This document shows, piece by piece, positions 2,769 through 6,116 of a stretch of 41,379 nucleotides of DNA. The first letter of the stretch is position 1. Every line of letters begins with the position of its first letter. The stretch is from positions 1 through 41,379 of the IMG/VR virus record IMGVR_UViG_3300031857_000444. The stretch is one strand, 5' to 3'. A program made the translations under genes and the position numbers. The stretch comes from a virus. The notes beneath the pieces are model-generated. The model saw nothing but the letters and a program-made list of their open reading frames with translations. It searched no databases and was not told the DNA's origin.

Positions 2769-3521
2769 ATGGCAAGAAAAGCAAATACAAAGATTAGACT
2801 TGTTGATGAATCTGATGTGCAAGCGAAACCAACGAATGCATTAAAAATCAGAATAGATGATTTAAAAACTTTTGACCCACTAACAAACAATCAAAAATTA
2901 TTTTTTGATGCATATAAGAGAGGCGATTATTTTGTAGCACTTCACGGCGTAGCAGGAACAGGTAAAACATTTTGTGCATTGTACAAAGCACTAGAAGAAG
3001 TTTTAGATAAGAGTAATCCATTTCATAAAATCATTATTGTCCGTTCAGCGGTACAATCAAGAGAAATGGGTCACTTGCCTGGCGATGTTGCGGAGAAGAT
3101 GGAAATATATCAGCAACCATACCAACAAATTTGCCATACATTGTTCGGTCGCAAAGATGCGTACCAGAGACTTGATGAACAAGGATATGTTGAGTTCATT
3201 TCAACATCATTCATTCGTGGTATGTCATTTGATGATGCGATTATTATTGTTGATGAAATGCAAAATTTGACCTTTGAAGAAATTGATACTGTTATGACCC
3301 GGGTTGGTTATCGCTCAAAAATTATTTGGTGTGGTGACTATCGCCAAACAGACTTGAACAAAAAGAAAAATGATATGACTGGTATTTTGAAATTCTTTGA
3401 TATCGCAATGCACATGAATGCGTTTACGAGAATTGAGTTTACCGCAGATGACATTGTTCGGTCATCACTTGTGAAAGATTACATCCTTGCTAAAATGCAA
3501 CATGAGGATGCAGCCAATTAA
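2769..3521 (+). CDS. phoH: PhoH-like P-loop ATPase
   Basis: A 250-residue protein. Residues 60-67 form a Walker A motif (GVAGTGKT) and residues 158-166 a Walker B motif (IIIVDEMQN). The segment VRSAVQSREMGHLPGD at about 91-106 and WCGDYRQTDL at about 187-196 are typical of the PhoH family, an ATPase with a helicase-like core often linked to RNA or phosphate metabolism. PhoH-like genes are common in aquatic T4-like phages, where their role is not settled. ATG 2769 is preceded by AGAGGG. The nuclease gene follows after three bases, so the two are likely co-translated. Confidence 0.92.
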   Translation: MARKANTKIRLVDESDVQAKPTNALKIRIDDLKTFDPLTNNQKLFFDAYKRGDYFVALHGVAGTGKTFCALYKALEEVLDKSNPFHKIIIVRSAVQSREMGHLPGDVAEKMEIYQQPYQQICHTLFGRKDAYQRLDEQGYVEFISTSFIRGMSFDDAIIIVDEMQNLTFEEIDTVMTRVGYRSKIIWCGDYRQTDLNKKKNDMTGILKFFDIAMHMNAFTRIEFTADDIVRSSLVKDYILAKMQHEDAAN

Positions 3522-3524
3522 ATT

Positions 3525-4184
3525 ATGTTTATCTATTGCCCACCCAAGAAACTTGAAGACTTAAAATCAGAAACACTAGAGAACGGAAGATTTTATGTAA
3601 CACCAGATGGTAAAAGATTGCCATCGGTAACAACCGTATTGGGCGCAATGGGTAAGAAAGCCATCTATGAATGGCGACAGCGTGTTGGTGCAGAGGAAGC
3701 AAATCGCATTTCACGGATTGCTTCTGGTCGTGGTACCCGTATGCATACGCTATGTGAGAAGTATTTGAACAATCAAGACATAGGTAAACCAATGCCTGAT
3801 GCTTTGGAGTTGTTTAGGAAAGTAAAGCCGTACCTAAATAAAATCAACAACATTCATTATCAAGAATGTGCATTGTGGTCAACCAAACTTGGCATGGCTG
3901 GACGTGTAGATTGTATCGCAGAATACGATGGCGTTCTATCCGTCATTGATTTTAAGACATCCAGCAGAGTGAAAACTGCGGAAGATATTCCTGCTTATTT
4001 CGCTCAATGTACCGCTTATGCATTGATGTATGAAGAATTGATTGGTGTGAGAATTGACCAAATAGTTGTTATCATGGCTGTTCAAGAAGATAGTCCAATC
4101 ATCTTTGTGGAACCAATGAGAAAACATATAAATACACTATTAGAATACATTAGTTTTTACCGAAAAAAAACAATTATTACCTGA
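3525..4184 (+). CDS. PD-(D/E)XK exonuclease (RecB/Cas4-like)
   Basis: A 219-residue protein with the motifs of the RecB-like nuclease superfamily. These are RGTRMH at 69-74 followed by CEKY, GMAGRVD at 123-129 (first metal-binding Asp), VIDFKT at 140-145 (Asp and Lys of the core) and QCTAY at 161-165 (the QxxxY helix). Such stand-alone nucleases in T4-like phages probably act in recombination or host-DNA degradation; the exact substrate cannot be read from the sequence. I see no CxnC iron-sulphur cluster of the Cas4 type. The start lies three bases after the PhoH stop with no Shine-Dalgarno of its own. The -35 of the next promoter (4181) overlaps its last codons. Confidence 0.88.
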   Translation: MFIYCPPKKLEDLKSETLENGRFYVTPDGKRLPSVTTVLGAMGKKAIYEWRQRVGAEEANRISRIASGRGTRMHTLCEKYLNNQDIGKPMPDALELFRKVKPYLNKINNIHYQECALWSTKLGMAGRVDCIAEYDGVLSVIDFKTSSRVKTAEDIPAYFAQCTAYALMYEELIGVRIDQIVVIMAVQEDSPIIFVEPMRKHINTLLEYISFYRKKTIIT

Positions 4185-4209
4185 CAACCTAGTTTTGTTG
4201 TGTTATAAT
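4181..4209 (+). promoter_or_regulatory. sigma70 promoter of the tmRNA gene
   Basis: CTGACA at 4181-4186, a 17-base spacer and a perfect TATAAT at 4204-4209 preceded by TG at -1 spacing (TGTTATAAT, extended -10). The predicted start, near 4216, lies immediately upstream of the tmRNA acceptor piece. The same transcript would run through the nested ORF, the tmRNA coding piece and probably the outer-membrane protein gene. Confidence 0.8.
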
Positions 4210-4215
4210 TAGTGT

Positions 4216-4280
4216 TATTGCTGTATGAAGCAAAGAGAAAAGTGTCCTGGACGGGGGTGCGAATCCCCCCACCTCCACCA
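4216..4280 (+). ncRNA. ssrA: permuted tmRNA, acceptor piece (3' half with CCA)
   Basis: This is the 3' half of tmRNA placed upstream of the 5' half. T stem GGGGG 4253-4257 / CCCCC 4265-4269 closes a 7-base loop TGCGAAT. The acceptor strand CACCTCC 4270-4276 is followed by A and an encoded CCA (4277-4280). The acceptor strand pairs with GGGGGTG at 4452-4458 over 7 of 7 positions, with one wobble that falls exactly at the G3-U70 position used for alanine charging. TGTCCT 4243-4248 can pair with AGGGCA 4472-4477 to start helix P2, and GCTGT 4220-4224 with ACAGC 4494-4498. The 5' end is uncertain (predicted transcription start about 4216; processing site unknown). The loop lacks the usual TTC, which is odd. 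An ordinary tRNA is excluded, since no anticodon or D arm lies upstream. Confidence 0.88.
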
Positions 4281-4291
4281 TAAGGATTTAA

Positions 4292-4450
4292 GTGGATAAT
4301 AAACTTAAAGAATTGCAGGAAAACTTAGCTAAAGATTTAGTTAAGTGTGAAGCCCGTGAGGGAATAACATTGACTGAAGAAAATTTAGAAAAGATTTCCG
4401 ATGCTTATTCAAAGGTTTATGATATCATTACTGAGATAAAATCTTTATGA
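4292..4450 (+). CDS. 52-residue protein nested in the tmRNA intervening segment
   Basis: A GTG-started ORF of 52 codons. AAGGA at 4282-4286 is five bases before GTG 4292, a good ribosome binding site. It begins 11 bases after the encoded CCA of the acceptor piece and its TGA ends one base before the first G of the coding piece, so it fills the intervening segment almost exactly. The product (MDNKLKELQENLAKDLVKCE, then a second segment LTEENLEKISDAYSKVYDIITEIKSL) is acidic and should form two helices, possibly a coiled coil. There is one Cys and no membrane segment. No family is recognised. Excision of the tmRNA pieces would separate this message from both sides, so its translation may depend on precursor processing. 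Confidence 0.6.
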   Translation: MDNKLKELQENLAKDLVKCEAREGITLTEENLEKISDAYSKVYDIITEIKSL

Positions 4451-4451
4451 T

Positions 4452-4617
4452 GGGGGTGACCTAGATTCGACAGGGCAAAGAGTAACAGAGTGGACAGCAC
4501 GACAGCGATAGTCGTAAAAACTAAAAAAAAGTAAACGCAAACGACTCACAGTTCGCATTGGCAGCCTAAACGCTGACTAGGGTTTCGGTAGGTTTCCTCG
4601 TAACAGAATAACCTACC
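4452..4617 (+). ncRNA. ssrA: permuted tmRNA, coding piece (5' half with tag ORF)
   Basis: The piece begins GGGGGTGACC and carries the tmRNA signature GATTCGAC (4464-4471) in the D-loop region. ACGAC 4499-4503 pairs with GTCGT 4511-4515, a candidate first stem of pseudoknot PK1, and an A-rich stretch precedes the resume codon GCA at 4537. The tag reads ANDSQFALAA then TAA (4537-4569). Downstream, GGTAGGTT 4587-4594 and AACCTACC 4610-4617 form an 8-pair stem, either a further helix of the RNA or a 3'-end stabilising hairpin. The order acceptor piece, spacer, coding piece is that of circularly permuted tmRNA genes, whose product is two RNAs held together by base pairing. It should rescue stalled ribosomes together with host SmpB. 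The exact 3' end is uncertain. Confidence 0.9.
4537..4569 (+). other. tmRNA proteolysis-tag reading frame
   Basis: GCA AAC GAC TCA CAG TTC GCA TTG GCA GCC TAA encodes ANDSQFALAA. With the alanine brought by the charged RNA the added peptide would be AANDSQFALAA, the same length as the E. coli tag (AANDENYALAA). It keeps the AND start (SspB/ClpA contact region) and the ALAA end recognised by ClpXP. Beta- and gamma-proteobacterial tags have this ANDxxxALAA form, whereas alpha-proteobacterial two-piece tmRNAs encode longer tags ending VAA. Confidence 0.92.
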
Positions 4618-4641
4618 ATCATTTTATTAAGGAGTTTTATT

Positions 4642-5178
4642 TTGAAGAAAATCGCAATCGCAAGTTTAATTGCAATCGCTGGTGCTGTACAAGCAGGTGG
4701 TTTCGTTTCGTATGGTGTTGACCAAGTTACCGACCGTGTAAGCAACCAACAAAGCATCGCACAATATGTTCGTGCTGGTACCTCATTAGGTGGTTTCAAT
4801 CTTGGATTACAAAATCGTAATGCACGTACCAATGACAACCAATCCATGTTCAATAGTTTGGAACTTACTGCAGGTAAGACAGTTTTCGGTATCAACCCAT
4901 TCGTTGGCGTTGGTTTTGATAATGGTGGTGCTGGTGCAAAGCCATATGAATATGGTCTAGTCGGCGCAAACGCTGGAGTTAAAGTTGGTCCTGGTTATGC
5001 CATGGCTGGTGCTAAGACCCGTGTAAATTGGGACAGCGCAAATCCAAAACAATCTGTAGTATTTGTTAGCTACGACATGCCAGTTATCAGCAAAGTATCT
5101 GTTGGTGTTGGTGTTAGCCAAAGCTATCAAGATATTCAAGACCGAGCAGTCGGACTTACAGTCTCTGTAGGATTCTAA
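4642..5178 (+). CDS. secreted outer-membrane beta-barrel protein
   Basis: A 178-residue protein with a clear signal peptide: MKKIAIASLIAIAGAVQA, with a likely cut after AQA-type Ala 18, leaving about 160 residues. The mature part alternates Gly/aromatic and polar residues in strand-like runs, as in small eight-stranded barrels. It ends in VSVGF, with a terminal Phe as needed for insertion by the host BAM machinery. The start is TTG 4642, with AAGGAG at 4629-4634. Small barrels encoded by phages (for example Lom of lambda) are known, and roles such as superinfection exclusion or surface change are possible; none is shown here. The gene directly follows the tmRNA coding piece and probably shares its transcript. 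Confidence 0.8.
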   Translation: MKKIAIASLIAIAGAVQAGGFVSYGVDQVTDRVSNQQSIAQYVRAGTSLGGFNLGLQNRNARTNDNQSMFNSLELTAGKTVFGINPFVGVGFDNGGAGAKPYEYGLVGANAGVKVGPGYAMAGAKTRVNWDSANPKQSVVFVSYDMPVISKVSVGVGVSQSYQDIQDRAVGLTVSVGF

Positions 5179-5558: not shown

Positions 5559-6116
5559 ATGCGAAGTAAACCTATACTTTTGAGTATACTTTTTTCATCT
5601 ATAATTTTGTCATTATCACTTATAAATGTTGACACACAAAACATTCTACCAATGAAGTCAACATTCAATGCACTTACTACAGATGCAAAGAAACAGGTAA
5701 CTTGTCTAGCCGAAAATATTTACTTTGAAGCGGCCCATGAGCCAAACGAAGGAAAGAAAGCGGTAGCATTCGTAACATTCAATAGAGTACAGTCTGGGTA
5801 TGCCGATGATATATGCGGCGTGGTAAAGCAAAAGACTGGTAACACTTGCCAATTTTCCTGGTATTGTGACAGCACATTTACCAGCAGAGTATTGACAATC
5901 AAGCACACTCTATTGTATAATGAGATTTTAGAGTTATCAACAAACTTATTTTTGAATTTTGAAAGAATGACCGATGTAACAAACGGAGCAACTTATTATC
6001 ATGCTGATTATGTAAATCCAGGTTGGACAAAACTAAAAAAGGAGAAACAAATTGGCAGGCATATTTTCTACAAAAGCAAAGGTGACAAAATTGACAGAAA
6101 CAAAGGAATTATCTAA
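5559..6116 (+). CDS. SleB-like cell wall hydrolase with N-terminal membrane anchor
   Basis: A 185-residue protein. Residues 5-24 are a hydrophobic signal or anchor segment (PILLSILFSSIILSLSLI). The following domain has the hallmarks of the Hydrolase_2 (SleB/CwlJ) family: CLAENIYFEAAHEP at about 49-62, with Glu 57 in the catalytic position of that family, then AVAFVTFNRV, DDICGVV and CQFSWYCD. Enzymes of this family cut peptidoglycan glycan strands. With its export signal it is a good candidate for the phage endolysin or a signal-arrest-release lysin. AGAAAGGA precedes ATG 5559. The next gene's possible upstream start overlaps its 3' end. Confidence 0.85.
   Translation: MRSKPILLSILFSSIILSLSLINVDTQNILPMKSTFNALTTDAKKQVTCLAENIYFEAAHEPNEGKKAVAFVTFNRVQSGYADDICGVVKQKTGNTCQFSWYCDSTFTSRVLTIKHTLLYNEILELSTNLFLNFERMTDVTNGATYYHADYVNPGWTKLKKEKQIGRHIFYKSKGDKIDRNKGII

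Follow-up and report, generated by a model that had tools for sequence, protein, structure and literature searches.

The usual description of a permuted tmRNA gene is that of an RNA gene whose spacer is discarded. We ask what the spacer of a permuted tmRNA encoded by a freshwater T4-like phage holds, and how a protein gene nested in it could share one transcript with the tmRNA. The window, i.e., the whole stretch of DNA analyzed, covers positions 1–41,379 of a virus record in IMG/VR (IMGVR_UViG_3300031857_000444), and all tmRNA and spacer features described below lie on its + strand.

ARAGORN and Infernal identify positions 4219–4617 as a full-length, circularly permuted, two-piece tmRNA of the betaproteobacterial type. 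ARAGORN called a permuted tmRNA at 4188–4660 with the tag ANDSQFALAA, and Infernal aligned both pieces over their full length with the Rfam models RF04321 (tmRNA_permuted; 120.3 bits, E = 4e-23, positions 4219–4569) and RF01850 (beta_tmRNA; 107.9 bits, E = 5e-32, positions 4168–4621). The agreement of ARAGORN with the two covariance models, the check that the first-pass annotation had proposed, bears out its claim of a phage-encoded circularly permuted tmRNA, and the T arm, acceptor strands, ACCA, GGGGGTG, and tag that it listed were all found in their places. The acceptor (3′) piece (4219–4280; delimited by ARAGORN and Infernal) comprises TGCTG (4219–4223), which pairs with CAGCA (4495–4499) and links the two pieces, the T arm GGGGG-TGCGAAT-CCCCC (4253–4269), the acceptor strand CACCTCC (4270–4276), and the encoded ACCA (4277–4280). 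The coding (5′) piece (4452–4617, from G1 to the terminal hairpin, the exact 3′ end being approximate) starts with the acceptor strand GGGGGTG (4452–4458), followed by the signature GATTCGAC (4464–4471), the tag frame ANDSQFALAA-stop (4537–4569; called by ARAGORN, resume codon GCA), and the terminal hairpin GGTAGGTT/AACCTACC (4588–4595/4610–4617). RNase P is expected to cut at 4451/4452, giving G1 of the coding piece. The acceptor strands pair at 7 of 7 positions with the wobble at G3-U70, as reported previously and re-verified here, and lead into the encoded CCA. The tag is a plausible degradation tag, with a resume codon and a (hydrophobic)-Ala-Ala end. A sigma-70-type promoter with an extended −10 element, CTGACA-17-TATAAT (4181–4209; 11/12 matches), is predicted upstream of the tmRNA precursor by a loose scan that found one site where 1.9 are expected by chance; the 5′ flank of the RF01850 alignment also takes in the TATAAT at this place.

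To place the locus in a wider context, permuted tmRNAs were gathered from related viral contigs using exact patterns and neighboring proteins, with loci accepted at 4 or more of 5 T-arm pairs and 7/7 acceptor pairing. The resulting set comprises 112 unique spacers of 40–600 nt, and G3-U70 is present in 112/112 of them. Relatives with 96 distinct spacer ends display 8 compensated acceptor types, including GGGGGTG/CACCTCC, GGGCCTG/CAGGTCC, GGGGATG/CATCTCC, GGGGCTG/CAGCTCC, and GGGCCAG/CTGGTCC; given this compensation, the permuted tmRNA in the window is far beyond chance. In the window (4253–4269) and in most relatives, the T loop is UGCGAAU in place of UUCGANU, and because the usual U55 is a G, pseudouridine 55 is impossible. 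The smpB gene was not found in the ten phage records tested, several of which are probably incomplete, and the phage tmRNA therefore presumably relies on host SmpB.

The intervening segment (4281–4451; 171 nt), which is expected to be removed from the mature tmRNA, is a slot for a protein gene, overlooked in the first-pass annotation. The nested gene, p52, encodes 52 aa (VDNKLKELQENLAKDLVKCEAREGITLTEENLEKISDAYSKVYDIITEIKSL) at 4292–4450, from a GTG start codon at 4292 to a TGA stop codon at 4448–4450. Its Shine-Dalgarno (SD) sequence AAGGA (4282–4286) begins 2 nt past the encoded CCA and is spaced 5 nt from the GTG, and the TGA ends 1 nt before the coding piece. The p52 protein yielded no Pfam hit above the cut-off and no PHROG match; its AlphaFold model consists of two helices (mean pLDDT 72, modest confidence).

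Across the wider viral set, an ORF, counted if SD-led or located behind a late-promoter-like box, occupies 62 of the 112 unique spacers, the remaining 50 being non-coding; the tmRNA therefore does not need a nested gene. The coding fraction depends on the pattern used to find the loci: the unique slots recovered were 5 coding and 10 non-coding with a 5′-piece pattern, which is neutral to slot content, and 33 coding and 28 non-coding with a T-arm pattern. The pattern TCCACCAWAAGG..ATG proved too loose, favored coding slots (17 versus 0 non-coding), and was excluded from the frequencies. BLAST clustering divides the 62 slot ORFs into about 29 unrelated protein families, including p52, a 122-aa GNAT-like protein, a CxxCxxCC protein (PF03692), and single-helix membrane peptides, among others; a second GNAT protein (PF13508) is found in the slot of locus L323. 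The low-confidence model of the 122-aa protein has acetyltransferases as its best PDB matches (E > 0.02), so that its GNAT-like fold is a lead. Exactly half of the slot ORFs (31/62) stop at position −1, that is, 1 nt before G1 with the TGA of a TGAT leader. Shuffling of spacer interiors predicts 2.6 comparable ORFs versus the 38 strictest (first-set) coding spacers, and short single-copy ORFs (17–30 aa) are individually weak, with comparable ORFs arising in 6%–59% of shuffles. Multi-member nested families are under purifying selection, with dN/dS of 0.05–0.25 in nearly all comparisons (GNAT-like, mostly 0.11–0.23; Cys-cluster, 0.06; TM36, 0.08–0.14; p59, 0.25).

The tmRNA halves and the slot contents assort separately. 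The halves of locus L057 are 99% and 91% identical to those of the window, yet enclose an unrelated 71-nt non-coding spacer, and one and the same GNAT-like gene is hosted by tmRNAs that differ in their T arms and 5′ pieces (L389, L390). As judged from these comparisons, slot contents swap between near-identical tmRNA halves, and the conserved flanking halves would permit such a swap by ordinary homologous recombination. Three apparent long slots (L306, 1891 nt; L339, 1664 nt; L367, 1348 nt) were discarded because they result from cross-pairing with a tRNA-like 3′ end located upstream, and each of these loci also holds a proper slot. The possibility that non-coding slots are tRNA-like was rejected, a T-arm-like hairpin being present only in L321 against 0.2 expected, and Rfam returned only tmRNA across the 16 tmRNA loci scanned for known RNA families in non-coding slots. 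A nested 59-aa protein, weakly similar to DUF1482/phrog_1092, is found in the slots of L021 and L339. In five slots of 342–491 nt (L276, L310, L323, L355, and L370), the T4-type late-promoter-like element NATAAATA precedes the ATG by 3–6 nt; the encoded proteins all start with M(R/Q)I(N/K)(E/D).., their bodies being otherwise unrelated, and are possibly products of leaderless late genes with a common N-terminal signal. Expression of these five ORFs may therefore be independent of the precursor. One two-ORF slot is common to L286 and L307, on very long viral contigs (286 and 364 kb), and the slot may therefore reach beyond ordinary T4-size phages.

The ends of the spacer serve more than one role. 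In the window, the 5′ strand TAAGGATTT (4281–4289), which contains the SD sequence, and the 3′ strand AAATCTTTA (4439–4447), which also encodes the end of the ORF, K-S-L, form a helix denoted P0, followed by the TGAT leader (4448–4451), which contains the nested stop codon, faces the ACCA of the acceptor piece, and is kept in 82/96 relatives. The predicted fold of the window is one long helix in which a single A-U pair and a C-A mismatch link the acceptor stem to P0; positions 4281–4286 pair with 4447–4442 at a probability of 0.99–1.0 and positions 4287–4289 more weakly (0.41–0.86). The predicted probability that the SD sequence is unpaired is 0.002, rising to 0.50 once the 3′ strand of P0 is shuffled. 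An 11-bp P0 closes nearly every phage spacer. With the register fixed such that base i after the CCA faces base i + 4 counted back from G1, the 96 distinct end pairs average 10.04 paired positions out of 11, versus 7.35 ± 0.13 with permuted partners, and A-U, U-A, G-C, C-G, and G-U exchanges occur at most P0 positions. When a single spacer represents each coding family, the values are 10.10 versus 8.59 ± 0.16, a level reached in 0 of 2000 permutations. The 4-base SD core is fully paired inside P0 in 27 of 28 coding families. The last codons of the reading frame form the 3′ strand of P0, which is why slot proteins from unrelated families have similar C termini (for example, KSL, VSL, and KVSL); nested p52 ends in KSL, and most free p52 copies end in ..KE.

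Synonymous-codon shuffles lower the fold stability of nested-ORF RNA: the mean z is −2.35 across 16 ORFs with 30 aa or more, compared with −0.54 across 45 segments from the window's other genes (Mann-Whitney p = 2e-6, which overstates independence because the 16 ORFs include relatives, namely, several p52 and GNAT-like copies). For non-nested p52 copies, the corresponding z ranges from −1.7 to +0.1. We read this as selection of synonymous codons for a compact spacer, so that the tmRNA halves would meet.

The tmRNA of the window resembles betaproteobacterial permuted tmRNA (RF01850; RF04321) in the order of the pieces, G3-U70, T arm, tag, resume site, and promoter position, whereas its 171-nt coding spacer sets it apart from the short spacers of bacteria. 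Strong RF04321 matches in 299 Pseudomonadota genomes span 193–332 nt, which implies spacer lengths of about 10–150 nt. Bacterial acceptors differ from the phage search pattern, and their spacers were delimited using ARAGORN coordinates; 13 of the 20 loci examined closely had delimitable spacers, of 5–90 nt, and the spacer of the longest match (L420) measures about 130 nt. No SD-led protein gene was seen by inspection in these bacterial spacers, L420 and a few others being inspected outside the systematic test. In the order to which the betaproteobacterial genome G282 belongs, the permuted form was found in only 4 of 120 genomes, with spacers of 25–43 nt. Bacterial spacers mostly close with a P0-like helix, mostly at an offset of 3 or 4, and P0 itself is therefore not claimed to be new.

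Taken together, sequence comparison supports the tmRNA, covariation of P0, purifying selection on nested ORFs, selection of synonymous codons for structure, and exchange of slot contents. We consider it probable that the locus is a functional-looking permuted tmRNA whose spacer is an exchangeable slot with a nested gene sharing P0, on which processing and competition would operate as follows. Transcription from the sigma-70-type promoter would yield one precursor with the acceptor piece, intervening segment, and coding piece, in which the acceptor stem runs on into the 11-bp P0 made by both spacer ends. RNase P would generate the 5′ end at 4452, and host enzymes would process the 3′ end at the encoded CCA. 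The message for p52 would be either this precursor or the released spacer. Ribosomes loading at 4282–4292 would cover the CCA end and those stopping at 4448–4450 would cover the RNase P site; because P0 hides the SD sequence and such ribosomes would block processing at both places, tmRNA maturation likely competes with nested-gene translation on one precursor, with P0 favoring maturation. After cleavage, a spacer with its stop codon at −1 would retain a usable stop codon at its very end, whereas spacers whose ORF enters the coding piece would turn into non-stop messages. Such run-through ORFs are present in 17 spacers (15 clear; L274 and L369 doubtful), in addition to that of phage Melnitz described below. 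The tmRNA, together with host SmpB, would rescue ribosomes and tag proteins during infection.

A realistic alternative, to which we assign a somewhat better than one-in-three chance, is that the slot is a tolerated parking place, with P0 only joining the acceptor strands and translation and maturation being uncoupled. The P0 helix is also present in non-coding phage spacers (mean 10.01/11 pairs) and recurs in bacterial ones, and given its presence in bacterial non-coding spacers, P0 may serve folding or processing only, with masking of the SD sequence as a by-product. The five slots with their own late-promoter-like element point the same way, and the unrelatedness of the cargo suggests that it has no common function. 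Set against this are the SD 4-mer within P0 in nearly all coding families, the stop codon at exactly −1 in half of the slot ORFs, and the selection on synonymous codons for structure, although SD and stop placement as well as codon selection would equally result from a folding constraint alone. A bolder version of our own reading, which we regard as possible but less likely than not, would give the spacer two dedicated roles, as a slot for cargo and as a riboregulator: P0 would render maturation and translation mutually exclusive, and in run-through spacers, cleavage by RNase P would create a non-stop mRNA that is a substrate of the very tmRNA released, closing an autoregulatory loop.

The distribution of p52 bears on two further explanations. 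A protein search identified p52 relatives at 33 loci in IMG/VR. In most of the closest loci, p52 is nested in the equivalent spacer, in L017 it lies directly upstream of the tmRNA, and in L033 and L035 it is free-standing behind the late-promoter-like TATAAATA. In L015, and also in L016, decayed tmRNA halves flank p52, which indicates that decay happens and lends some color to the idea that a gene inserted between the halves has turned the tmRNA of the window into a pseudogene. We nevertheless judge this highly improbable: the window tmRNA is full length with two Rfam models, acceptor covariation, universal G3-U70, an intact tag, and P0 all speak against it, and the same features accompany coding and non-coding spacers. 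In L015 (at about 1500–1850) and L016, p52 is followed by the apparent start of a fresh tmRNA 3′ piece, and these loci look like a duplicated tmRNA locus with one copy decaying. That the spacer ORF is a chance open frame in an ordinary non-coding spacer, as its shortness (52 aa), GTG start, and A+T-rich region might suggest, is the least credible explanation of all and can be set aside given the 33 related loci, conservation of the protein inside and outside the slot, dN/dS of 0.05–0.14 between nested copies where measurable, a chance of about 0.01 for a p52-like ORF in interior shuffles, and a canonical SD sequence at 5-nt spacing.

The preferred reading, a permuted tmRNA with an exchangeable protein-gene slot, has partial counterparts among known systems. 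One is the ssrA gene of Methylophilales phage Melnitz, likewise a permuted gene of a T4-like myophage located after genes for PhoH and a PDDEXK nuclease, which also has a P0 helix (TAAACACTT/AAGTGTTTA). It has been described as alpha-type with a glutamine riboswitch and without an annotated spacer ORF (PMC9004378). We find in its spacer an unannotated SD-led ORF of 54 codons (L419, 1597–1761; Melnitz 46096–46260) that extends 42 nt into the coding piece; this run-through ORF would be a second arrangement of the nested-gene idea. Some tmRNA genes contain group I introns, some of which carry homing endonuclease genes (PMC11915505), and likewise hold a protein gene inside a removable part of a tmRNA gene; there, however, a self-splicing intron encoding a homing endonuclease interrupts the T loop of a standard-form gene, whereas the phage slot is the spacer of a permuted gene, with tRNA-type processing probable and unrelated phage proteins as cargo. 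No group I intron was detected in the window tmRNA, where the T arm is contiguous (4253–4269) and Rfam scans returned no intron family. The permuted tmRNA of GCA-2688965 has an intact tRNA-Ala in its intervening sequence, reported as unique among 97,179 tmRNAs (PMC11915505); there an RNA gene, and here a protein gene, lies within the intervening sequence. In the parts of that 2025 survey consulted, protein genes are mentioned only in group I introns and none in the intervening sequence (PMC11915505), and within our partial coverage of the literature, we found no report of protein genes in a permuted tmRNA spacer.

The window also encodes PhoH (2769–3521), followed by a PDDEXK/exonuclease gene (3525–4184), and an endolysin (5559–6116), and its T4-like baseplate wedge protein gp6 is closest to those of Melnitz, HTVC008M, and Mosig (about 42% identity). 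In both the window and Melnitz, the tmRNA sits downstream of the PhoH and PDDEXK/exonuclease genes, with two small hypothetical genes intervening in Melnitz; given this shared neighborhood, the tmRNA may be old in the phage lineage rather than recently acquired. The first-pass annotation regarded a permuted tmRNA as unusual in a T4-like phage, a view that is outdated: two-piece ssrA was reported in Melnitz in 2022, when two-piece forms made up 53 of 133 distinct phage tmRNA structures (PMC9004378), and our searches add three isolates (HTVC008M, Mosig, and BUCT-ZZ01) as well as well over 100 contigs from related viruses, so that its occurrence in T4-like phages is already established. As for the suggestion that the gene was taken from a host with two-piece tmRNA, the match to beta_tmRNA, the best in Rfam, fits, and no donor was identified; a search for the source host through the T-loop signature UGCGAAU led to bacteria from unrelated phyla. 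Neither the window tmRNA (blastn) nor p52 and the GNAT-like protein (tblastn) had a match in 50,697 phage records, and the comparison therefore rests on IMG/VR contigs. Directly downstream of the tmRNA, an ORF at 4642–5178 with a TTG start and the SD sequence AAGGAG encodes a product with a signal-peptide-like N terminus and without a PHROG match, resembling a small outer-membrane protein.

What is new, as far as comparative sequence analysis can tell, is that protein genes are housed in the spacer of a permuted tmRNA, with their control elements shared with the tmRNA processing helix. Many phages appear to have put the spacer to use; the protein families so housed number about 29 and are unrelated to one another. 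A single RNA segment would combine the roles of processing helix, ribosome-binding site, final codons of the ORF, stop codon, and RNase P leader. Annotation misses the slot proteins because it assigns the region to tmRNA, and the slot thus reveals very small predicted phage proteins, many of them with one membrane helix. The locus would offer a natural system for dual coding of RNA fold and protein, for competition between ribosomes and RNA processing, and for gene exchange at a fixed micro-locus, and the related arrangement in a cultured phage, Melnitz on OM43, makes the nested-gene idea directly testable.
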